Origin: Cochliopodium minus | Taxonomy: Eukaryota; Discosea; Himatismenida; Cochliopodiidae | Length of the DNA stretch: 28,922 nucleotides | Reading direction: 5' to 3' | Assembly: GCA_024220525.1 (NCBI GenBank) | Contig: JAMYWO010000418.1 | Coordinates: forward strand, 1 to 28,922 | Part shown: positions 785 to 26,694 of the stretch, piece by piece | Numbering within the stretch: the stretch's first letter is position 1 | How the letters are laid out: each line of letters opens with the position of its first letter | The notes under the pieces: generated by a model | What the model saw: only the letters and a program-made list of their open reading frames with translations | Told to the model about the DNA's origin: nothing | The model's database searches: none | Made by a program: the position numbers and the translations under genes

Positions 785-3715
785 TCAGTTTTCACAAAGC
801 CTACTTTTCTCAATCACTTCTTCTTCACTTAATGGAGACAAAGAAAACAAATGGTCGACAAGTTCTTGGTTAGCTGCAAAAGAATATGTCGTTTGTTTGC
901 ACTGCATTATCAAGTCAACCACTTTCTGGATCAAACTAAACTTCTGGAAGTTGACAAGTCCTTCTTTTGTCAGATTCTGGTTGCTTTCTTCGATAAAACA
1001 AATATCCTGAAGACAAAGTCCAAAGTATGGAAGAAATGGTAGACGTTTTAGCTTTTTTTTGGGCATCTCGATGATTGAAGACGTAAAGTCAGAATCACTA
1101 TCACTTGTATCACACTCCGAGCTCATCGATCCTTTGAAATTTTCTTTGATGATCTTTTTCTTCGCAACTTCACTTTTACATTGTTCGAAACTGTCGTTCA
1201 GACTGCTCTTGTTGTTTCCTCTCTTTTTAGAGTTCTTTTCGTTCTTTACGGTGGCATTTGCTCTTTGAATTGCTTCTCTGAGAGATTTGTAATTTTGAGA
1301 AGGATTTAACAATCTGTCCATTTCTTCCATCTTTTTCTTGCACTCAATCGAAATCTATTATCGCAAATTAATAAATATGTGAATAATAATAATGAAATCA
1401 ATGAAATAATGAAAAAAAAAAGAAGATATAAATAAAAAAAAAAGATATAAATAAAAAATAAAAAATAAAAAAACAAGATATAAATAAAAAAAAGGATATA
1501 AATAAAAAAGAAGATATAAATAAAAAATAAAAAAAAGAAGATTAATAACTAATGGAACACTTACAGATTTGAATGTTTTTTTCATTCTTTGGATTGGAAA
1601 AGAGTTGATCGTTGATAAGACCGCAACAAACATGTTGAACGAGTTCATTTTGAGACAGTTATGACCTTTAAATTAATTTTAAGAATTAAATAATATAATT
1701 AAATAAAATTGCAATAATAAAATTATAATAATAAAATTAAATTAAATAAAATTAAATTAAATTAAATAAAATTAAATTAAATTAAATTAAATTAAATTAA
1801 ATAATTAAATTATAAAATAAAAATATTAAATAATAATTTAAATTAAATAAATAATATTAAATTAAATTAAATGATAAAATTATTAAATAATAATTTAATA
1901 AATTAATTATTAATAAAATTAATTAATAAAATAATAAAATAATAAAATTAATAAAATAATAAAATTAAATAATATAATAAATTAAATTAAAATAATAAAT
2001 TAAATTAAATTAAAATAATAAAATTAAATTCAAATAATTAAATGAATTAAAAAAATTACCAATTTCGATCATCCTTTCAATTTCTTCGACGATTTCTTCA
2101 TCATCTGGTTGAGATAAAATGCTGGTTGCAACCCATCTTGAAACGTTGTTGAAGTGATTGACCAAAGAGAAGACACTATTGCAAAATGGACTCTTCGTAC
2201 TGCTCGTACCAATCAAAAAAGGGGAGCAGATGGAAGAAACACCTCTGTTTTCTTTCGAGTCTCGAAACAAAACGAACTCTCTTTTGTCATTGTGCCAGTT
2301 CAAAAGTTGATTGAGATCCAATTTTCTGAAGAGAAGTTGATCCAAAAGGGTGAGTTGTTGAGAAATCTCAAGCGCATTGAAGATCAACTTTTTCAACACT
2401 CTCGTGCTGATGCTCACTTTGCTAATCACTTTGATGAAATCCGATTTGCATCTTTCTGTTCTGTTTCCCTCTTTTTTATTGTCTTCTTTTTTTTTTGTAT
2501 TTGCTTCTTTGTCTTCTTTTGTATTTGCTTCTTTGTCTTCTTTTGTATTTACTTCTTTGTCTCCTTTGTCTTTTTTATTTGCTTCTTTGTCTCCTTCTTT
2601 TGTATTTACTTCTTTTTTTTCTTCTTTTGTATTTACTTCTTTGTCTTCTTTGTCTTTTGTATTGACTTCTTTTTCTTCTTTTTCTTTTGTATTTACTTTT
2701 TTATCTTTTTTATCTTTTTTATTTGCTTCTTTTTCTTTGTCTTTTTTATTTACTTCTTTATCTTTTGTATTTACTTCTTTTTTTTCTTCTTTTTCTTTTG
2801 TATTTACTTCTTTGTCTCCTTCATCTTTTTTATTTGCTTCTTTGTCTTCTTTTTCCTTTTTATTTGCTTCTTTTGAAAGAAATGTTGGTGTTGAGAAAAG
2901 TGGTGAAGAAAATTCAAAGTCCTCTCCTTTTATTCCTGTTGACCTCTTTTCACTTTGTTCAGAAAAGGTTTCCTCATTCTCATATATTTCTGTATTTTTG
3001 TGTATTTTTTTTTTTAAATAAAATAAAGAAAATCAGACAAACAATTAATAATTAATTAAAAAAATATATGAAAATAATTAATTTTTAATTTAATAAAATA
3101 ATTTAATAATAAAATAAATTTACCATCTCTCCCTTTCATATTTGATCTCTCTGCGACTTCAAATGTGTTAACCAAGTCTTTTTGTGCTTGAACCTTTTTT
3201 TTAAAATAATAAATTTGGTAAATTTGATAAATGAAGATAAATAAAAATAAATAAAAATAAATAAAAATAAATAAAAATAAATAAAAATAAATAAAAATAA
3301 ATAAAAATAAATAAAAATAAATAAAAATAAATAAAAATAAATAAAAATAAATAAAAATAAATAAAAATAAATAAAAATAAATTAGATAAATTTGATAAAT
3401 AAAAATGACAGTAAAAAAAATGATGTTTTTTACACCAAGAGTTGCATACACCACATCTTCGAGAAATGAGAAAAATTCAAATTGAATCTCTTCATTGTCA
3501 AAATCTCCGAAGTGATTGCTAATCCAATATTCAATCACAAGAATGATCTTCCTCCAATAGTTTTTTTGATTGTCTCCTTTTGGAACATCACAATACATTT
3601 CAATGAGGGAGACAAACATCTCAATGGGGGAGATGATCCTTCTAAAATTCATGAACACAATCTTTCTGTAGTTGGCCAACTTCTCTCCATCCATCTGAGT
3701 CAAGTTTTCAAGCAT
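785..3715 (-). CDS. Ras guanine-nucleotide exchange factor (RasGEF_N + Cdc25 domain), 5 exons
   Basis: Exons on the minus strand: 3715-3434, 3193-3124, 2989-2060, 1665-1565, 1336-785. All junctions are GT-AG with matching phases, giving 644 residues. Residues ~1-110 resemble the RasGEF N (REM) helices. Residues ~156-290 are a Lys/Glu/Asn-rich repeat. The Cdc25 catalytic domain runs from ~300 to the end, with ALEISQQLTLLD, the FNNVSRWVATSIL helix, MNSFNMFVAVLSTINSFPIQR, the LNPSQNYKSLREAI stretch and LPFLPYFGLCLQDICFIEE. Such proteins load GTP on Ras-family GTPases at membranes. The N-terminus is short for a REM domain; a CAG acceptor at 3718-3720 just before the ATG leaves room for an unseen upstream exon. 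The neighbouring LOV gene is on the same strand but separate. Confidence 0.88.
1681..2050. repeat. A/T microsatellite in RasGEF intron
   Basis: Almost pure A/T sequence built on AAATT and AATAAA units fills the intron between the third and fourth RasGEF exons (1666-2059). Confidence 0.8.
2466..2877 (-). repeat. In-frame coding minisatellite in RasGEF
   Basis: On the coding (minus) strand the tract is almost pure purine with short A/C/T interruptions and encodes variants of KEVNTK and KEANKK with acidic spacers. I followed the frame through the whole tract and found no stop. The opposite strand is pyrimidine-rich and also stop-free over long stretches, but encodes only Phe/Leu/Ser runs and is not a gene. 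Confidence 0.85.
3238..3382. repeat. 10-base tandem repeat in RasGEF intron
   Basis: About 14 nearly perfect copies of the unit TAAATAAAAA lie in the first RasGEF intron (3194-3433). The even spacing suggests slippage or recent array growth. Confidence 0.9.
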
Positions 3716-4073
3716 TTCTGTCGGAGAAATTAAGAAAGAGTTGAAAAAGAAATTTAATTAAAAATCAAATTTTTTTTTTATAAATCTTTTATCGAGAGTA
3801 AAAAGTAAAAACCAAGAATCTCATCGAAATTAAATCAAAAAGTTAAATATTTTTCTTTCTAATAAAGATATGTTTTTTGGGGCATAATGAGCAATCCCCA
3901 AAAAAAAGTTTTTGTAAAATCATTTGAATGCATAATTAAGATAAAGTGATTTCAATTATACAGTAAACACCATTTTAAGAAATATACTTGAAATGATCTG
4001 ATATAAACAGAACTCGAAAATTTTATGAAAAGAAATTAAGATTTTTGAAAATTTTATAAATATCACAAATATA
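3716..4073. other. Intergenic between RasGEF and LOV genes
   Basis: Contains the 5' flank of the RasGEF gene and the 3' flank of the LOV gene, both on the minus strand. I looked for a further RasGEF exon with a donor of the right phase and found none that was convincing. Confidence 0.5.
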
Positions 4074-6105
4074 TTATATTATATGAAAAATTTTATAAAA
4101 AATATCTTTTGAAATTTCTTTACTGTTTAAAGATATCTCCAAAATGTTTCCTTCATTATCTGTGATAATTTTCTTGGAATTGATGAGATGCAGAGTGTAT
4201 TCTTCTAATTTGTTCTTATTTTGTTCGATTTTTGTTGTCTTGTAGTCTTGGTTGGAAATAGAGTGAGAATACGATGTGGAAGTTGGGAGAGTGGGAGTAC
4301 GAGACGATGATTTGTTGATCCTCAAAAGAGGAAGAGACTCATTTTCTTCATAATGTGATACCTTGCTGAACATCAAAGAGGATTTCTTTCCTTCTTGAAG
4401 AGATCCAATGTTTTTAGATTCCCTCAATAATTGCAGCTCGTTCTTCAGTTGGTTGTTCTCTTCTTCGAGGCTTTGGATGTATGACTCTGAAAATCTGGTC
4501 TCAAAATCCTTTATCTTCAAAACATTCACTTCTTTTCTCATTTTCTCCATCTCTTCTTCTTTTTTGTGCAGTTCTTGTTGCATCCCTTTGAAAACAGAAT
4601 AATTCCTCTCTTTCTTCAGTTCTTCATGATCATTCAATCTTTTTTGGAGATCTTCATTCTCTGATTGCAAGATAGACAGTTTTTGGTTGAGTGATTTGAT
4701 AGTTTTCCACGATGCAAGATATTTGCCCTTCAAATCAGTGATTGTGTTGATGAATTTCTTGAAGAATTCTGTATTCTGTTGGCTTGTTGAATCCCCACCT
4801 TCTGTATTCAACACATAGAATTCATCTCTGAATTAAATTGAAGGATTGTCAGTTGTAATTGCAAATGAGAATTGTAATTTTGACATATTTGATTATATGA
4901 TGTTTAATTTGTAATATTTATGATTGAAGGTTAAATATAAATATTATTTGATTGTATTGGTATTTATTTATTCTTCAAAAAAGATTCTATTATTTTGTTA
5001 CGAGGATGAAAAGATTGTTTTTGCGAGAGTGAAAGCAGAAGGCATCAATGATCCACTCACTATCCTTTGTTTATAGATCCATTTCATCGCTTCATCTTCA
5101 CTTGAGAAGATTATTACATCTTTCTGCACTGCAATAAAGTATTCAACTGACTTTTTTTTTATAGATTTTTTTTTTTTTGTGAAGGAATTAAATTAATAAT
5201 GTTTGAAGAGTTATAGATTGAATGATGGTGATTTACCCTTTTCTTGTTTGCATTCTTGTGGATAGGCAATACCATAAAGTCGTTCATGAACAAGGTTCCA
5301 TCTTTTCTGTAATTGATCAATTCCACATGGCATCCTTCTCCTTTGATCAAAGCTTCCTTCATTTGAGATACAACCCTCTGATGTGCAAATTTTAATTTGA
5401 AAAAATAAAGTGAGGTTAATATATTATAATAATAAAAAAATTAAAAATAAAAATGATTTTTTTATTAACCTTGCTCGTTTTTGGTCCTTGCAAAAATCTG
5501 CAATTTTTTCCAAGGATATCTTTCTCCACATATTGGGTCATAGAAGTAAACTTTTGAAAGATTGAATTAAATTAATGCTAAATTTTAATTTTGAAATACT
5601 TTTATAATTATCTCCCTTTTTGATCATTATTTTTTTCAATAATCAAAGAACAAGTGAAAGAAAATGATTGAATTTAAATGTAATATATTCATAGTGATAT
5701 TTATTTTTTTTTTAAAGTGATTAACTATAAAAAGTTTCTTCATCATGTTATTGATAGTTTATTCCTGATTATTATTTTCTTTTGGGCGAAAAATATACAA
5801 GCGCTTTTAAAAATTATAGCTTTACCTTTGAATTTTGATATATGATTGGACCATCCTTGAGTTTGTTGTTTGTGACCAACATACTCTCATGGATTGATTC
5901 AAGGAAAGGATATTCTTTGAGAATTAACTTTTGTATTTTCTTCATCTTTCTGACACTAAGTTGGTAATTGGATCCACCCTTCTCTTTCCAAACTTGGTTG
6001 AAAGTATCCACATCTTTGGAAAACAAAAAAATACAATTAATTTTGGGTAAATGAAAATGGAGAATTGAAAATTTTACTTTTTTGTAAAACAAGATCTTGT
6101 CCCAT
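4074..6105 (-). CDS. LOV (flavin photosensor) domain protein with C-terminal coiled coil, 6 exons
   Basis: Exons: 6105-6078, 6013-5826, 5550-5470, 5377-5237, 5150-5002, 4827-4074. Phases agree at every junction and the product is 446 residues starting MGQDLV. Residues ~45-160 form a LOV-type PAS domain. The motif GKNCRFLQGP (86-95) carries the Cys that forms the flavin adduct (C89), and the other flavin contacts are present: N121 in LINYRKDG, N131 in FMND and Q155 in FIAVQKD. In known LOV proteins blue light links FMN to this Cys and moves a C-terminal effector. Here ~200-330 is a Lys/Glu-rich coiled coil, followed by a Ser/Thr-rich tail; no enzyme domain is seen. The coiled coil suggests dimerisation or scaffolding. 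Without spectroscopy, light sensing is inferred from conserved residues. Confidence 0.88.
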
Positions 6106-7076: not shown

Positions 7077-7142
7077 ATTTAAAATTGTCAATAAAACAAT
7101 AATTAATGAAAAAATAAATATATAAAAAAAAGTGAAAATAAA

Positions 7143-8026
7143 ATGAAATCCAGTCCACTTGTAAATACTCTTTTGATTGATCATCCTCCGCATAATAAAG
7201 AAATTTGTCAATTTTCTTCATTGCCAAGAAATATAAAGGAAGAGATCTGGAGTTATGTGGATGATAAAGATTATTTCAGAATTCAATTGGTAAGTAAGCA
7301 GTGGAGAGATTATTTAGAAAATCCAAAATCAATTTCATTGAGAAATAAACATACTGAAGCATTGGAATCAAAAAGAATTTTTAAAGAAGGCTCCAAATTT
7401 TACCGGGATTATTCTTTCACCTCCAAAGTGGTTGCATTGCAACAAGAAAGTGTGGATATTAGATGTTGTTATCATACAGATACGGGGAGAGTAGTGAGTA
7501 TTTTAAAATGTGCAAATTCTTTGTAAAAAAAAAAATCACGAAAATTTTGATGAATAATGAAATTTCAAAGAAAAATTTTAATTTAATATTTAATAAAAGG
7601 CTTTTTTTTCCTTGTGCTTACTTAAACAATGCAAAAAGAACTTGTTGTGAAAAGGGTTTTGGCGTTTGTGCGATTTTTATAGTACTTCTCCTGCCTCTTC
7701 CTTTCGTTTTGATGTTTTTCATGATTGGATTGTTGGTAGAAATGATCAAAATAATGATTTGGATGGTTACTTTTTGTTATTGCTGCAAATCTAAAAACTT
7801 TTGTAAGTGTTTTTCAGTGAAAAATAAAATGTTTGGTCCAATGAGTCATCTAAATTTGAAACCTCCTTACCCTTCTTCTGATTCTCTTTTCACCTCTTTC
7901 ACCAATGATCCTCAACTTCAAAAAGATTATTTGCGGACTGTTGAAGAAGAGTTATCTTGTGGTCCTGCTTGTGCTCTTTGCTTGTACGCTTCTAATTCAG
8001 GTTCATGTTTTTATTATTGTTGTTGA
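7143..8026 (+). CDS. Membrane-anchored F-box protein, copy A, 2 exons
   Basis: Exons 7143-7522 and 7600-8026 (380 and 427 bases), product 268 residues. Splicing uses a GTAAAA donor and an AATAAAAG acceptor; copy B has exactly the same exon lengths, which fixes the model. Residues ~20-65 match an F-box (FSSLPRNIKEEIWSYV, then FRIQLVSKQWRDYL), the module that binds Skp1 in SCF ubiquitin ligases. A 35-40 residue hydrophobic stretch (~150-188) should span the membrane once or form a hairpin; it ends in a Cys cluster (CYCC, then FCKCF) that could be palmitoylated. The tail has CGPACALC and ends in a Cys pair. The first ~20 residues differ from copy B while the next ~100 codons are nearly identical. 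An upstream GTGAGT inside exon 1 is an alternative donor but gives no shared frame. Confidence 0.8.
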
Positions 8027-8277
8027 AAAAAATAAATGATGCAACCACATTTGTTTGATTCAAATTTTTTAATTTGAATTTTCAATCTAAATTGTTTTTA
8101 ATTTAATTTTTGGCTGTTCTTAGATTTTGTAGGTTACTTCATATAATATTTTTGAGAAAGATATTCAGTTTATTTCAATTGTTTAGCTCATCAAGTATAT
8201 TTATTTACCTTTTTTCTGAATCATAATTTTTCTTTTGATATTTCTGAATTTAAAAATTATAAAAAAAATATTTGAAA

Positions 8278-10081: not shown

Positions 10082-11145
10082 ATTCATTAATTATTGATTA
10101 TAAATTATTTATTTTTAATTTTAATTCAATTTTTATTTTTATTCAATTTTCTTTAGTTTTATTTCATTTTCATTCATTAATTATTGATTATAAATTATTT
10201 ATTTTATCATTTTTATTTAATTTTTTTTATTTTAATTTTTTTTAATTTTATTTTTTATTTTTTAAAAAAGGTTCATCTGCAGCTTCAGAGGTAGAAGTTC
10301 AATCCATCATGAAATACTTCGGCACCTTATCCAACGTCCAAGTTTCCACTGACTGGCACTCCTACTCCCAACTCTACATCACCCCTTGGGTATATTAATT
10401 TTTTTTATTTTTTTGTTTACATATTTCTTTTTTAATTTTTATTTATTTTTATATTTATTTTATTTATTTTATTTATTTTATTTATTTTATTTATTTTATT
10501 TATTTTATATCTTATTTATTTTATTTATTTTTTTAAATTTGATTTTAATATTTTTTTATTTTATTTATTTTTATTTATTTTTTTAAATTTGATTTTAATA
10601 TTTTTTTATTTTTATTTATATCTTATTTATTTTATATCTTATTTATTTTAATTTAGGCTTGGACCACTGCTAGTCCTCCTTCCCTTTCTAACATGACCTC
10701 TTTGGGTAACCAATTTGCAGCAGCCATCAGAGCTACTTCTGGTCAAACTTACCAAGTCGGTTCCACTGCTCAAATTCTCTACGTTGCTTCTGGTTCTTTC
10801 AACGATTGGTAAATTAAAAATTAATTAAAAAATTTGATTGAAATTAAATTAAATATAAATTAAATTTAATATAATTTTAAACTTTATTAAAATTAATTTT
10901 TTAATTCAGGCAATATGATCAATTCGGAATCATTTATACTCAATGTATTGAATTGAGAGATACTGGAAGATATGGTTTTCTTTTGCCTGCTTCTGAAATT
11001 ATTGCTACTGGTGAAGGTAATCTCCTCTTCCTTATTAACTTTTCTAACCCTTTTTTATTATTTTTAAAAAACAGAAAACTTCAATGGAGTTCTTGTTCAA
11101 GCAAAACAAATCTTGGGAAACACACCTTTGAAAAGAAGAAACTAA
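8278..11145 (+). CDS. Secreted M14 metallocarboxypeptidase (A/B type), 8 exons
   Basis: Exons: 8278-8436, 8630-8992, 9177-9321, 9688-9849, 10271-10389, 10657-10808, 10910-11016, 11075-11145; 425 residues. A signal peptide ([17 protein letters not shown]) is followed by an activation propeptide (~20-110) and the catalytic domain. Zinc ligands H178 and E181 lie in QHAREW, the third ligand H306 in DWHSYSQ, and the general base E381 in [10 protein letters not shown]; the Asn-Arg substrate clamp is in DTNRNW. The enzyme removes C-terminal residues from peptides. The pocket position equivalent to bovine residue 255 reads Asn (SGSFNDW), neither the Ile of carboxypeptidase A nor the Asp of B. Likely secreted or lysosomal and used in food digestion. 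An AATAAA lies just after the stop. Confidence 0.95.
10436..10512. repeat. TTTAT tandem repeat in carboxypeptidase intron
   Basis: Repeats of TTATTTTATT lie in the fifth intron of the carboxypeptidase. All introns of this gene are strongly T-biased on the sense strand. Confidence 0.8.
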
Positions 11146-13649: not shown

Positions 13650-14026
13650 ATGGAAAAATTTATCCACTTTATCCTTGTGAAATCTATAATTTTAAATATC
13701 TTTAAATAAATCTTTTTTAAATTTAATTATTAATTTACATTTTTTTCTTTTAAAAGATTTCAATTTGATATTTTTTATTACTATTAATCCAAAATTCCTG
13801 TTGAAATAATTGAAATTTTAGAAGGAATAAACTTATTTAGTTTTTAAAAAACGATCAAAAAATTTTAATCAATTATTAAAAGATAATTTGAGGACTTTAA
13901 GCGAGAATGGTCTTCTTGTGATGATTCAAAAAATTTTTATTTCTCTTCTTTTACTTAATATAAATTTTTTTTTAAATTTAGAAAATTATTATTCAATATT
14001 AATATATAAAAAAATATAAAAAAAAA
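13650..14026. other. 5' flank of F-box copy B
   Basis: AT-rich, no coding signal. The last ~40 bases before the ATG are A/T only, as upstream of copy A. Confidence 0.5.
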
Positions 14027-14947
14027 ATGATACCAAATATAAAAGAAAATGCTCCTTTGATTGATTATCTTGAGCCTAATAATGAAATTTGTCAATTTTC
14101 TTCATTGCCAAGAAATATAAAGGAAGAGATCTGGAGTTATGTGGATGATAAAGATTATTTCAGAATTCAATTGGTAAGTAAGCAGTGGAGAGATTATTTA
14201 GAAAATCCAAAATCAATTTCATTGAGAAATAAACATACTGAAGCATTGGAATCAAAAAGAATTTTTAAAGAAGGCTCCAAATTTTACCGGGATTATTCTT
14301 TCACCTCCAAAGTGGTTGCATTGCAACAAGAAAGTGTGGATATTAGATGTTGTTATCATACAGATACAGGAAGAGTCGTAAGTATTCTAAAATGTGCAAA
14401 TTCATGGTAAAAAAATCAAGAAAATTTTAATTTTGAGCGAAATTTAAAAGAAAATTTTATTTTAAATTTTTTAATGAAACAATTTGATTTTTAATTAATG
14501 TTTTAAATATTTAATAAAAGGCTTTTTTTCCCTTGTGCTTATTTCCAGAAAGCAACAGGATACTGTTGTGAAAAGGGTTTTGGCGCTTGTGTGACTTTTC
14601 TAGTACTTCTCCTGCCTCTTCCTTTCATTTTGATGTTTTTCATGATTGGATTATTGGTAGAAATGATCAAAATAATGATTTGGATGGTTACTTTTTGTTA
14701 TTGCTGCAAATCAAAAAACTTTTGCAAGTGTTTTTCAGTGAAAAATAAAATGTTTGGTCCAATTAGTCATCTAAATTTGAAACCTCCTTACCCTTCTTCT
14801 GATTCTCTTTTCACCTCTTTCACTTATGATCCTCAACTTCAAAAAGATTATTTGCGGACTGTTGAAGAGGAGTTGTCTTGTGGTCCTGCTTGTGCTCTAT
14901 GCTTGTACGCTTCTCATTCAGGTTCGTGTTTTCATTATTGTTGTTGA
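14027..14947 (+). CDS. Membrane-anchored F-box protein, copy B, 2 exons
   Basis: Exons 14027-14406 and 14521-14947, with lengths 380 and 427 exactly as in copy A; 268 residues. The F-box half (from about residue 21) is nearly identical to copy A at the DNA level, whereas residues 1-20 and the intron have diverged. W127 is split by the intron; exon 2 opens LFFPCAYFQKATG, then CCEKG, the long hydrophobic segment (~151-188), the CYCC and FCKCF clusters and the CGPACALC tail. Presumed role: Skp1-binding adaptor held at a membrane; the substrate-binding part would be the region between F-box and membrane segment, which has no recognisable repeat. The patchwork of identity suggests recent duplication with gene conversion. 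Confidence 0.82.
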
Positions 14948-15130
14948 AAAACATTAGTTTGATTAAATTGTATTATTGAATTTTTCATTCTCTTATGATT
15001 CTTTCAGAATAGATCAAGATTTCAAAAAGGCTATCAAATAAGATCTAATTTTTCAAATTAATCTCTTTACAAATAGTTATTTTATTACAAAAATTTTATA
15101 ACTAAATGGAAAAATAGGATAATAAAATTA

Positions 15131-20542: not shown

Positions 20543-20589
20543 CTAAAAAAAAAATATTTAAGAAAAAAACAAAAAATGAAAAAGAAATA

Positions 20590-20682
20590 ATTAATTAAAA
20601 AAAAAAAAAATAAATAAAAATAAAAAAATAAAAATAAAAAAATAAAAAATAAAAATAAAAATAAAAATAAAAAATAAAAAAT

Positions 20683-20714
<32 letters not shown>

Positions 20715-20829
20715 TAAAAAAAAATACAAAAATAAAAAAATAATAAAAAATAAAAAATAAAAATAAAAATAAAAATAAAAAATAAAAAATAAAAAATAAA
20801 AAGTCAAAAATAAAAATAAAAAAATAAGA
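20590..20829. repeat. A-rich AAATAAAAA tract, probable false join
   Basis: About 240 bases of AAATAA/AAAATA units in the apparent intron between the carrier tail and the JmjN/ARID exons. It has the same composition as the tract that ends at the N at 12341, and a repeat of this kind can merge two unrelated introns. Confidence 0.75.
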
Positions 20830-20836
20830 TGAAAAC

Positions 20837-23004
20837 CTTCTTGGGCATCTTCTACAATCTTCCAAAAAGCATCCTCTTTTTCTTCAATGGTCATGTGTTG
20901 TCCTTTAAAATAGTTCTTCTCGAACTGCTTTGAAATCTCCCTGAGCTCGATCATGTTGACATCCTTGCCGGTTCCATAACCGAAATGCTCATGTTCTGCA
21001 GTCTCACTAGGTTCATTTTCTTCATGTTTGATAACATTTTCTTTTTTTTTTTTTGTAAATTTAATTAAATTTAAAAATCAGGTGGATCATTTTTTATATG
21101 ATCAGATTAATAAATTAATATTTACAAGTTTATTTATTTATTTATTTATTTATTTTATTTTGCTTTTTTATTTATTTAGTTTACCTTTTTGATCATCCAC
21201 GTTATCTTTTTCATCTTTCATCTCATCTTTGTTTCTGACGGGGGAATTCTCATTGGAAGAGGAAGGAAGGGAATCCTCATGCATCTCATTATCATCATTA
21301 TCATCATTATCATCATCATCATCCCCAAGCATCTTCTTCTCTGATGACTTATCATGATCAGAAATGCTATTTTTGGATTTGATATCGCTTTCCTTCTTGC
21401 TCTTCTCTTTTTTGATGGACTCTTTGCTATTCTCTTTGGAATCTTTATCATCGATATGTTTGTTGGTGTCAATATGTTTGATATCTTGAATGATGATCTC
21501 ATTTTTATCAATTTCGAGATTATTCTTTGAAGATTTCAAATCACCATTTGAAGAATCCCTGCTTTGCTTCTTTTTGGATTTATCCAGGTGAATTTCATAG
21601 TGATACAAAAACTCTATGTAGGCATCCCTCAATATCTTGGTGGCTCTCTCCATATCGATATCGAAGGGGAGGATCTTATGCTCAGGAACAACTTCCTCCC
21701 ACAAATCTTTCTTGTCTACCACCGAAAAACCTCCTCTCTGTCTCACCGATCTGAAAAGTACGTATAAATCTATTTCTTGTCCTTTGAAAGTTGGTCCTTT
21801 GAAAAAAATTGGTTTGATTAAAAAAAAATTGTTTAAGGAGAGAAAAGAAATTTAAAAAAAAATTAAAAAAAAAGAGAATAATTTTAAAAAACATTTTATT
21901 CGTATTGAAGACAAGTTTATTGATATTATGGTTTTTTTAGGGGATACTTTCTTTGGTGATATCCTCTCAAATTTGATAATTAAGATACATAAGTCACTCA
22001 AAAAAAAACAAAAACAAAAAAAAATCAATATAAAGACAAGATTATGCAACAAAGAAAGATTTGTAAAACAATAAAAGTGTCAAAGATGATAAAAGGATAA
22101 ATACATAATCCAATTTATAAAATTCCAAGATATAAAAAATTTTTGTTGTTAAACAAAAAAAAAGAAAAGGGTTTACTTTGTAAAGATTCAAATTCACTGT
22201 TAAATTTTCCACATTTGTCCAAAAATTTTTCCAAAGAATCCACAAACTTTACGTTAGGACCTTTTCTCATCATAAGTTGATGGATGTTCTGCAACTTGGT
22301 ACTAAATACAATATTTTCAGGATCGTTGATTTCTCTTGAAAGATATCCGTTTTGCAACCAAGCTAATTTTGAAAAAAAGTTTTTTTCAAAATAATAATTA
22401 AATACAAGAAAAAAAATAAATTAATATAAAATAAATCCTTCTATTCTCTTTTGTATTGGATTCTTTTGCCAATAATCAAAAAAATCTATTTCGTTTTTAT
22501 CCATTATATTTTTTTTTTCTCCTTCAAAAAAAAATTTTTGAACAAACCTCCTTTTGGTGGAACTATTTTACAAATACCATAATTTCTTGCTAATGGGGTT
22601 ATTTTTCTGATATATTCCATTGTATCTTTAAATTCCTCTGCAGTTGGTCTAAAAATGGGACAAAAAGGAATATCTCTGATTTGTTTTTTCCTTTGAAATT
22701 GCCTTTGCCAGACATGTTTGTCTGAATCAAGAGGATCCATGAAATTTATCTTGGAGAAATCGATTTTAGAAAATTCATTGGGATTAGGTGTGTCCCTTTT
22801 TTTCCTTCTTTTTTCTTTTTTTTTTTCTTTGATTTTTGTTATTTCTTTCAAAATCATGCTATCGTTCAAAGGTGTTTCAGGAGGATTAGATAAACATTTA
22901 TCCAAATGATTTGCAATGTTTTCTGAGGAGTATCTTTGAGAACAAAAGGGGCAGGGAAAGTAGATAGGGTAGAGCTCTTCTTTGCTTTTCATGCTATCGT
23001 TCAT
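20837..23004 (-). CDS. JmjN-ARID chromatin protein (KDM5-like) with N-terminal UBZ4-type zinc finger, 3' incomplete
   Basis: Exons: 23004-22548, 22362-22177, 21796-21185, 21040-20837, phases consistent. Residues 18-37 form a C2HC finger (CPFCSQRYSSENIANHLDKC) like the Rad18-type ubiquitin-binding UBZ4. JmjN follows at ~118-152 (FCPIFRPTAEEFKDTMEYI, YGICKIVPPKG) and ARID at ~165-260 (VKFVDSLEKFLDK, GQEIDLYVLFRSVRQRGGF, LWEEVV, YEIHL). Then comes a Lys/Ser/Asp-rich linker with an acidic run and the segment YGTGKDVNMIELREISKQFE ... EDAFWKIVEDAQEG, which in KDM5 H3K4 demethylases leads into JmjC. JmjC is absent; the next exon in the window is a mitochondrial carrier. The first in-frame ATG (23004) is the start; an in-frame stop lies upstream. 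Confidence 0.85.
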
Positions 23005-23441
23005 TTTTTCAAAAAGTCTAGAGTTTGTTTTAAAGATTGTCAGAGATAGTTTAGATTTATTATCCAAAGTATATTTTTGAAGAATATTTTATTATTTACT
23101 CTCAAGAAAAAGTGGCCTTATTTTTTTTTTTATTTTATTTTTATTTATAAATATATTTGCTCTTTTATGTATTTAATTTGTCTGACAACTTCAAATACAA
23201 TCACAATAGAGGAAAAAGCTAAAATTTGCAAAATAACAAATGAAAGCTTCCTTTAATAAATAATCAAAGAAATCTAAACAAAAACTAAAAATAGAAATTT
23301 ACTTTTTAAATCTAAAAACAATTTTCTTCAAAACATTTATAATAGAATTTCTTGAGTATAAATACAATTTTTGTAAAAAGGAAAGAATTAAAAAAATTGA
23401 ATCCTTAACTCACAATGAATTGAAAATGAAATTAAAAAAAA
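23005..23441. promoter_or_regulatory. Divergent intergenic region, JmjN/ARID / basic protein
   Basis: 437 bases between divergent genes, A/T-rich with a T tract near 23120-23150. Both promoters are expected here; no specific element seen. Confidence 0.45.
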
Positions 23442-24275: not shown

Positions 24276-25759
24276 ATGAAGCTCAACAAGATCTGGAAGA
24301 ACAAAAATATCACAAAGTCTTTTTCCAAAAGCTTTTTTTCCACTAAAAGCGATTTTACTTTGAAACTTGAAAATGTAAAATAAAATTTTATAAATTTATG
24401 AAAATCAAAAATTTTATAAATATTCCTTTCACTCATTGAGATAAATTTTTTAATTTTTTTTTTTTCCTTTCAAAATTTGAAAGCCATATCAATTACATCT
24501 TCTAGAAAAAGGACCATCAAATACAGTCACTGCATCAAAATCTGAAATAATAAAGGATTACAGAGATATGCAATTGATGAGAAAGTTAGAAGTTGCAGCA
24601 GATGAGCTTTATAAGAAAAAACAAATCAGAGGTTTTTGTCATCTTTATAATGGTCAAGAAGCAGTCGGTCAAGGTATGGTTGGTGCAATCAAAGAAGGAG
24701 ATTCTTTGATTACTGCTTACAGAGATCATGTCTTCCCTCTCATTCTTGGGGATGATCCAAAACTTGTTATTGCTGAATTGATGGGAAAATATGGAGGAAT
24801 TAGTAAAGGAAAGGTAAATAAAAGAATAATATCAAAAAATGAATTATACTATCATAAAAAAGATATCCTTTTATTCAAAAAATTATCACATATAATTTAT
24901 AACCAATATTAAATTAATATTTGAAAATATTTAATCAAATCACATTTACATTCGTATATTATTTGAAATGAAATTGAATTTCAACGGATTATTTTGAATG
25001 ATTTTAAAAAATTCTTTATTATCTTTCATATCTCTCAAATAGGGAGGATCAATGCACATGTATAATCCTAAAAAACATTTTTATGGAGGAAATGGTATTG
25101 TAGGTGCACAAGTTCCAGTAGGAGTAGGGCTTGCATTCGCACATAAATATAACAACACCAAAAATGCAGCATTGGCATTCTATGGAGATGGAGCATCCAA
25201 TCAAGGACAAATCTTTGAAGTATATAACATGTCTGCCCTTTGGAAATTACCAATCATATACGTATGTGAAAATAACAAATATGGTATGGGTACCTCCGTC
25301 GAAAGATCCTCCGCCAACACTTTATATTACAAAAGATGTGAATATATCCCTGGTATCAGAGTCGATGGGATGAATGTCTTGGCTGCCAGAAATGCCTACA
25401 GATTCGCTCTAGATTATGCCGTCAACAATGGACCTATCATCTTGGAAATGGAAACCTACAGATATTATGGTCACTCTATGTCTGATCCTGGAACCACTTA
25501 TCGTTCAAGAGATGACGTACAAAATGTCAGAAAAACAAGGGATCCTATCGCTAAAGTTAAGGGGTGGGCTTTGGACAACAAATTTGCTACTGAAGAGGAG
25601 CTTAGAAAGATTGATGAGGAGGTTTCTCAAATCATCACTGATGCTCTTGCTTGGTCTGAGAAGAGTGAATATCCTCCTGCTGATGAGTTGTACCGTGATA
25701 TCTATGTTGAGAACACTCCTGTCAGAGGTGTCGAGTTTTCAAACTCTTTCAAAGGTTGA
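24276..25759 (+). CDS. PDHA1: Pyruvate dehydrogenase E1 component, alpha subunit, mitochondrial, 3 exons
   Basis: Exons 24276-24374, 24484-24813, 25043-25759; 381 residues. Exon 1 encodes a presequence (MKLNKIWKNKNITKSFSKSF) rich in Lys/Ser and lacking acids. The mature part opens LHLLEKGPSNTV. Markers of E1 alpha: IRGFCHLYNGQEA, LITAYRDH, GNGIVGAQVP, and the thiamine-diphosphate motif from GDG (~191) to ENNKYG (~220). The loop YRYYGHSMSDPG (~283-294) keeps the serine that PDH kinase phosphorylates in animals. With the beta subunit it decarboxylates pyruvate and feeds acetyl groups to E2, so the organism has an aerobic-type mitochondrion. Converges on bL9m, ~250 bases apart. Confidence 0.97.
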
Positions 25760-26010
25760 GTTTTTCTAAGAAAAAAAAAAGTATCAAAAAATAAATTAAT
25801 TCAAAAATTTTAAAACTTTTCTTTAAAATTGATCTCATAGTTTCAAAGAGTTAATCTAAAAGTACAAAGAAATTTTTTTTATTTTTTCTATATCTTTGGA
25901 AAAAATTATATTTAATTATATCCTTTGTATAAATCAGTTGATTTGATTTTGTTTGTTGAATAATGAAAGGGAGATTTAAATAAGGGTTTTATTGTTTGTT
26001 ATTTGATTTA

Positions 26011-26694
26011 TTATCTCTTTTTGATATCCAATTTTAATTTTGATTCCAAGAGTTGTCCATCATCCAAGGTGATACGAACAGGAACTTCCACCAAACCCAA
26101 AGTATTTACAATAGGTTCAGGCAACAAGATATTATCAGTGGTCAAAACGATATTATATTGTTTTTTTAATTTTGCAAGAATGCTATAAACAGTGATTCTT
26201 CCATGAGTAACACCAGGAGAGATGACATGTCTTTTAAACTTTACAGTGAGTTTATCCAATCTTTTTTTATTCTTTTCTAACACCCTTCTTTTTTCTCTTG
26301 CTTCATAATCAATCAATTTGGTGTATGGTTCGAATTTATCTCTGTTTTCTGGGGTATCATATACTGCCATCAATTTTGGGAATAAATGATTTCTTGCATA
26401 TCCTTTTGATACATTCAAGATTTCTCCTATCTCTCCTACTCCAACCAGATTTTCGACCAATATCACTGATGTGAATTTATTTTCTGCTACTTTGGGGCAG
26501 TAAAAATTTTTTTGGGAAAAATAAAGATCTGAAAAATTATAGGTCTTGTTGATAAAGGTTCTATATTGATATAAATTGGATTTATTTAGAAAAATGATAG
26601 ATGGAAAGTTTTATTATGTTGAATTATTTTGTTATTTGGTATATATATTTTTTTACTTGTTAAAATTGATTGATTTCTTGGTGAACAACTTCAT
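26011..26694 (-). CDS. MRPL9: Mitochondrial ribosomal protein bL9, 2 exons
   Basis: Exons 26694-26657 and 26560-26011; 195 residues. Exon 1 gives a short presequence (MKLFTKKSINFN). Exon 2 adds ~30 residues including YFSQKNFYCPKVAENKF, then the bL9 signature region: VILVENLVGVGEIGEILNVS and GYARNHLFP, the N-terminal domain that binds 23S-type rRNA, followed by the connecting helix (EAREKRRVLEKNKKRLDKL) and a C-terminal domain. Without exon 1 the only starts are GTG or internal, so the split model is needed; its phase (AA|GTAAAA joined after ATATAG) fits exactly. Confidence 0.9.

Follow-up and report, generated by a model that had tools for sequence, protein, structure and literature searches.

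A probable blue-light-controlled LOV-RasGEF in Cochliopodium minus, with sister LOV-RasGAP genes in the same genome

Here, we analyzed a 28,922-nucleotide stretch of Cochliopodium minus DNA (the window), which is the whole of one contig (C413) in an assembly of 44.65 Mb and 598 contigs (GC about 25%). The explanation that best accounts for what we found, and to which we assign a probability of roughly 0.7, is that the minus strand encodes a 1,081-residue RasGEF controlled by blue light through a LOV domain, and that sister genes in the same genome encode LOV-RasGAPs. The fusion of LOV and RasGEF in a single gene is, judging from the sequence, very probable, and, given such a fusion, it is quite likely that the exchange activity is light regulated.

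The original prediction described a LOV domain at 5061-6105. The gene stops neither near 5061 nor at 4998; it most likely extends to 785, with the LOV domain most likely forming the N-terminal fifth of a larger LOV-RasGEF protein. Our model has 11 exons on the minus strand and encodes 1,081 residues, with a stop at 785. All phases close, and the introns are of the GT-AG type, are 64 to 406 nt long, and have a GC content of 0.02 to 0.22, versus 0.29 to 0.39 in the exons. The features of the gene are as follows.

6078..6105, minus strand: exon 1, with the start codon (MGQ...); an in-frame stop lies just upstream, and an MG[NQ] start is common to the family
5826..6013, minus strand: exon 2, N-terminal helices, then the first part of LOV (splice model)
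5470..5550, minus strand: exon 3, GKNCRFLQGP, with C89 at 5500-5502 (splice model)
5237..5377, minus strand: exon 4, N121 at 5312-5314 and N131 at 5282-5284 (splice model)
5002..5150, minus strand: exon 5, Q155 (5124-5126) in the final LOV strand, then a linker of about 40 residues; ends in phase 2
5115..5903, minus strand: LOV core, residues 47-158, across introns (Pfam and PDB matches)
4828..5001, minus strand: LOV-effector intron, donor GTAACA, 174 nt, 20% GC; position and phase as in the transcript-supported intron of the RasGAP paralogues
4124..4827, minus strand: exon 6, coiled coil (about 4515-4766) and start of RasGEF_N (model, coding score, heptads)
3434..3717, minus strand: exon 7, RasGEF_N (REM) motif (Pfam, 8.3e-8)
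3124..3193, minus strand: exon 8 (splice model)
2060..2989, minus strand: exon 9, a linker of Lys/Glu-rich repeats, then the opening portion of the RasGEF catalytic domain (from 2369)
1565..1665, minus strand: exon 10, RasGEF catalytic domain (model, Pfam)
785..1354, minus strand: exon 11, remainder of the RasGEF catalytic domain (to 938), within which lies an insert of some 75 residues; the stop follows

The predicted protein reads, in order, N-terminal helices, LOV, a linker with a coiled coil, RasGEF_N (REM), and a Cdc25-type RasGEF domain. Over the full 1,081 residues, Pfam returned RasGEF (PF00617; 1.7e-38, residues 756-1031), PAS_9 (4.1e-14), and RasGEF_N (PF00618; 32.8 bits versus a cut-off of 28.3), all above their cut-offs; the four families at E<=0.01 included a single LOV and neither an RGS family nor a kinase. 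The best heptad pattern between LOV and RasGEF_N falls at residues 217-300. The catalytic domain found its best PDB match in 2ije (3e-28), a guanine nucleotide releasing protein that we take to be RasGRF1, and its LVNF segment, in the catalytic hairpin region, aligns to that structure. The insert in this domain precedes an LPFLPYFG segment.

With respect to the sensor, the claim held up well: the LOV domain is complete, none of the canonical chromophore contacts is missing, and the frame stays in phase, all in a eukaryote that is rich in both introns and AT. The LOV frame, spliced from 6105-6078, 6013-5826, 5550-5470, 5377-5237, and 5150 onward (minus strand), runs for 196 residues up to an in-frame TAA, and its core carries the PAS fold of the LOV type. 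The profile search proposed as a check gave a PAS_9 match of 5.2e-15 for the LOV peptide (56 bits versus a cut-off of 27), and a PDB search with LOV gave a LOV domain as its top match (1.2e-23) and 150 distinct sequences at E<=0.001, the best 60 of which we inspected. On the strength of the PAS_9 score and the PDB matches, a chance origin of the LOV match is excluded. The adduct-forming cysteine, C89, lies within a G-x-N-C-R-F-L-Q type motif (GKNCRFLQGP), and the polar flavin contacts N121, N131, and Q155 align with those of known LOVs, all four at the positions first given for them in the spliced exons. The near-canonical spacing was likewise confirmed: the cysteine-to-asparagine distances are 32 and 42, the same as in oat LOV2. 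Q155 lies 3 residues farther out in the alignment to 2v0u, owing to a short insert ahead of the last LOV strand. The loop after the cysteine helix, which in VIVID holds an FAD-type insert, is as long here as in phototropin and has no such insert; FMN is therefore the likelier chromophore. Five exon junctions were said to keep phase through the domain. Phase is indeed kept, but four of the introns fall within the LOV module and the fifth comes after it. The suggestion that the domain is under selection is consistent with pN/pS values of 0.26 to 0.42 in three pairs, as expected of purifying selection, although the measure is crude and synonymous sites are saturated against the paralogues.

A search of the genome placed LOV loci on four contigs (the window, C347, C84, and C78), with 15 exon matches. 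The locus at C347:8882-12284 models as 13 exons encoding 694 residues, with all phases closed, in the order LOV, DEP-like, RasGAP; a second RasGAP gene adjoins it on the opposite strand. Its RasGAP match in Pfam is 1.6e-7 (31.9 bits versus a cut-off of 28.3), and in the comparison with neurofibromin (4.9e-10) the arginine-finger segment TLYRED aligns to TLFRGN. We term the segment that follows LOV in the RasGAP type DEP-like because its DEP matches are weak (Pfam E of 0.09 and 0.14; DEPTOR, E of 0.046). The C84 and C78 loci (L025 and L026) are near-identical, recent copies of a LOV-RasGAP gene. The former has out-of-frame changes and looks, by eye, to be decayed; the latter is in frame through the LOV part, and its sequence reads N past the DEP-like exon. 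A protein from an EukProt transcript assembly (P0121) closely matches the exons of both, including a 10-nt microexon that we read from the genome; its RasGAP score in Pfam (24.7 bits) is below the cut-off of 28.3.

The TAA that closes the 196-residue frame (5000-4998) raises the question of whether the window instead holds two neighbouring genes on the same strand, namely, a LOV gene that stops at 4998 and, downstream of it, an independent RasGEF gene. Bacteria commonly have short LOV proteins, and Ras regulators are plentiful in this genome, whose RasGEF matches (at least 168, beside at least 69 for RasGAP, counted as exon matches rather than genes) make a RasGEF neighbour less improbable than usual. 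Moreover, we found no RNA or protein crossing the window gene's own LOV-RasGEF junction, and LOV and RasGEF occurred together in none of the best 120 of 439 matches to the 1,081-residue query and in none of the best 120 of 258 matches. However, the TAA is part of a GTAACA donor, and reading it as such leaves phase 2, which is the phase in which exon 6 opens after its acceptor, a CAG at 4828. In exon 6, 81 codons precede the first in-frame ATG, and these score +44.4 in the predicted frame; the other two frames give +18.8 and +15.7. The gap at 5001-4828, by contrast, scores -28.1, -24.6, and -17.9 in its three frames. Both the codons at the start of exon 6 and the gap had been held out of the training of the coding score; negative scores were obtained for the remaining introns too, but these had contributed to the background, which makes their scores partly circular. 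Exon 6 therefore needs an upstream exon, and the phase of exon 5 fits. Two separate genes would leave the coding-like codons of exon 6 with no start codon ahead of them, given that the sole ATG in the exon 6 frame within the gap meets a stop without a usable donor (judged partly by eye). The same GTAA is found at the same spot and in the same phase in all four LOV loci. The window gene and C347 also have in common the phase-0 introns that follow residues 72 and 99, as well as the phase-2 intron at the end of LOV, and one intron of the C78 copy coincides with the window gene's fourth. The P0121 protein, which reads TIGYSVPNWDLLNN across the junction spot, including the residues of the microexon, shows this donor spliced in the RasGAP type; its frame starts inside LOV, so that it documents the splice but not the fusion of a whole LOV to RasGAP. 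Taken together, these observations make two neighbouring genes unlikely. Alternative splicing could also yield both products, a diffusible LOV protein from the retained intron and LOV-RasGEF from the spliced one. Retention is possible in that GTAACA is not the commonest form of donor, and the retained form would stop cleanly after residue 196. It would give the same C terminus in all four loci, but conservation of the donor predicts the same thing, and we regard a dual output of this kind as improbable.

Another possibility is that the fused protein is real but that its LOV domain is not a light switch, acting instead as a redox sensor or as a scaffold for the RasGEF. Some LOV domains are reported also to answer to redox or temperature, and the hydrophobic W of the FWN motif is replaced by M here. 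Nevertheless, the window, C347, and C78 copies all retain the cysteine together with the three polar contacts, and a role apart from light seems to us rather unlikely. A blue-light-controlled LOV-RasGEF remains the reading that we favor.

Database proteins place the window gene in a wider family. LOV and RasGAP occur together (Pfam, for RasGAP) in proteins from Planoprotostelium fungivorum, an amoebozoan (P0273; 5.9e-12), from a metagenome (P0272; 1.9e-11), and from an MMETSP record (P0137; 1.9e-10). SAM was found in the first two and was not reported by Pfam in the third. The taxid of P0137 resolves to the green alga Chloropicon mariensis, and the doubt over its true source weakens any claim of an amoeba-only family. 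Another member of the LOV clade (P0135) has a sub-threshold SAM and a long tail, with no GEF or GAP match. The closest single database match, at 64% over 54% of the query, is a protein of 137 residues (P0001), of which a scan of viral contigs returned no relative. An MG[NQ] start is present in all nine family members with a visible start, the window gene included, and it too has N-terminal helices before LOV; only 7 of 347 database proteins have such a start, 5 of them belonging to the family. The PROSITE myristoylation pattern fits three of the nine starts but not that of the window gene. For the latter, the gene model and the homologous intron argue for a Ras regulator and LOV in one polypeptide.

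A tree had been proposed alongside the original prediction, and in ours the window LOV groups with the LOV-SAM-RasGAP proteins among bacterial LOVs and not with phototropin or aureochrome. The family and the copies from the window's own genome form one group of 8 rows (support, 98/86) on the bacterial side (96/90), away from the rows of phototropin, aureochrome, and other algal LOVs. The tree comprises 39 LOV rows hand-picked from the 347 database proteins plus three own-genome copies, is rooted for drawing only, and omits C84 (out-of-frame change), P0121 (which lacks the first half of LOV), and the fungal LOVs (White Collar/VVD). Structure models added little. That of P0121 was poor (mean pLDDT, 49.7) and was not used. 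That of P0273 (mean pLDDT, 61.6) gave LOV matches among the 50 Foldseek rows shown and LOVs plus some EAG/ELK channel PAS domains among the 50 VIA rows shown; RasGAP is missing from these rows, an absence that carries no weight. In the same model, residues 261-331, between SAM and RasGAP, appear to follow a beta-beta-alpha-beta-alpha-beta order, like that of a Ras-binding or ubiquitin-like fold. Separately, two metagenome proteins (P0224 and P0337) combine LOV with CAP-Gly according to precomputed Pfam labels, a possible further unreported LOV effector.

The only other coiled-coil/RasGEF_N relative that we found in the genome is a RasGEF gene on C9 (26% identity). This gene has RCC1-like and RhoGEF-like segments upstream (by eye), and no LOV match was found on its contig. 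This pattern suggests exon shuffling, through which various Ras regulators each received a LOV module that closes with a phase-2 intron. Bacterial contamination is ruled out as a source of the window by ten phase-closing introns and by its place in a 598-contig, 44.65-Mb genome. For comparison, published introns of Acrasis kona measure 9-95 bp (PMC11589745), Naegleria GC is 33-37% (PMC12482156), and Willaertia magna has 25% GC with assemblies of 36.6 and 47.6 Mb (PMC6892926, PMC11702301); a thymidylate synthase search gave no match. A second type of flavin blue-light sensor is present in the genome as a single BLUF match (C329:28503-28679, L033; 6.3e-15). Elsewhere in the window we noted a pyruvate dehydrogenase E1 alpha gene (24568-25769, plus strand), the second exon of which matches its human counterpart at 9.4e-82, a ribosomal protein L9 with both domains, presumably mitochondrial (26011-26466, minus strand), and a JmjN-domain protein, likely a histone demethylase (22504-23067, minus strand; 1.1e-17). 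A repeated cassette is complete twice (7111-8032 and 13995-14953) and partial once (1-260), the large copies showing repeat identities of 92 to 97%; it encodes an F-box protein (Pfam, 2.2e-7) together with a short protein that is hydrophobic and rich in cysteine. Long intronic arrays of the ATTTTT type (e.g., at 3240-3400, 10430-10650, and 20580-20800) give rise to spurious phenylalanine-rich open frames.

In LOV photochemistry, formation of the adduct and reorientation of the glutamine change the last LOV strand and the segment beyond it, and in SOS, activity is set by contacts between REM and Cdc25. By analogy, we envisage that the window LOV binds flavin and that blue light would drive formation of a flavin-C89 adduct, with protonation of N5 and a flip of Q155. 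The signal could then pass from Q155 via the last LOV strand to the linker and coiled coil, where it might alter or re-register the packing of the coil or release the REM-Cdc25 module. The outcome in the light would be loading of Ras, the presumed substrate, with GTP, although the sign could be the reverse; in the dark, decay of the adduct would lower exchange. The LOV-RasGAPs, for their part, would alter GTP hydrolysis in the light, an opposite effect on the same Ras pool, such that light could push Ras activity either way. A more speculative extension, which we rate at somewhat less than an even chance, is that one shuffled LOV module has produced an antagonistic pair through which light alone both generates and removes Ras-GTP at the cell cortex and directs movement, no separate receptor cascade being needed; this would be a possible link to behaviour such as phototaxis.

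If this reading is correct, a natural LOV-RasGEF and its LOV-RasGAP sisters put light one step away from Ras, the hub of amoeboid motility, and the light responses of amoeboid cells become testable at the molecular level. They would also provide optogenetic Ras switches that come ready-made in one piece and act in either direction, a natural counterpart of the engineered opto-Ras tools, and the Planoprotostelium protein, now filed as a PAS/PAC sensor protein, is probably a photoreceptor. There is a lesson for annotation as well: a phase-2 GTAA donor mimics a stop codon, and LOV-effector genes of AT-rich protists may therefore be cut short in annotation and recorded as small LOV proteins.

Proteins known to carry LOV sensors include kinases, cyclases, transcription factors, and F-box and RGS proteins. 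The same sensor chemistry is expected here as in phototropin, aureochrome, bacterial LOV-histidine kinases, and LOV-GGDEF proteins, but those carry other effectors; phototropin, for example, has two LOVs and a kinase, whereas the window protein has one LOV and no kinase, and its LOV sits on the bacterial side of the tree, apart from phototropin and aureochrome. The nearest relatives are the LOV-SAM-RasGAP proteins, which share the LOV clade, the MG[NQ] start, and a C-terminal Ras regulator. They differ in that SAM (in P0272 and P0273) takes the place of the coiled coil or DEP-like segment and RasGAP that of RasGEF, and the records that we examined for the three proteins give no sign of their earlier recognition as photoreceptors. 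In the literature that we searched, we recognized no natural LOV-RasGEF or LOV-RasGAP, although the 2016 LOV survey by Glantz and others may include some. The fungal RGS-LOV photoreceptor BcLOV4 likewise joins, in nature, a blue-light LOV with a regulator of G-protein signalling; a review describes its binding to membrane lipids as driven by light (PMC8993538). However, its RGS domain is N-terminal to LOV and acts on heterotrimeric G proteins, whereas in the present proteins a C-terminal RasGEF or RasGAP would act on small GTPases. Engineered opto-RasGEFs (PMC10363612) and LOV2-Intersectin fusions (PDB 5hzj) also place GEF activity under the control of light but are man-made dimerisers or insertions, in contrast to the natural gene described here. 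As far as our searches reach, the window gene thus appears to encode a LOV photoreceptor with an unreported class of effector.
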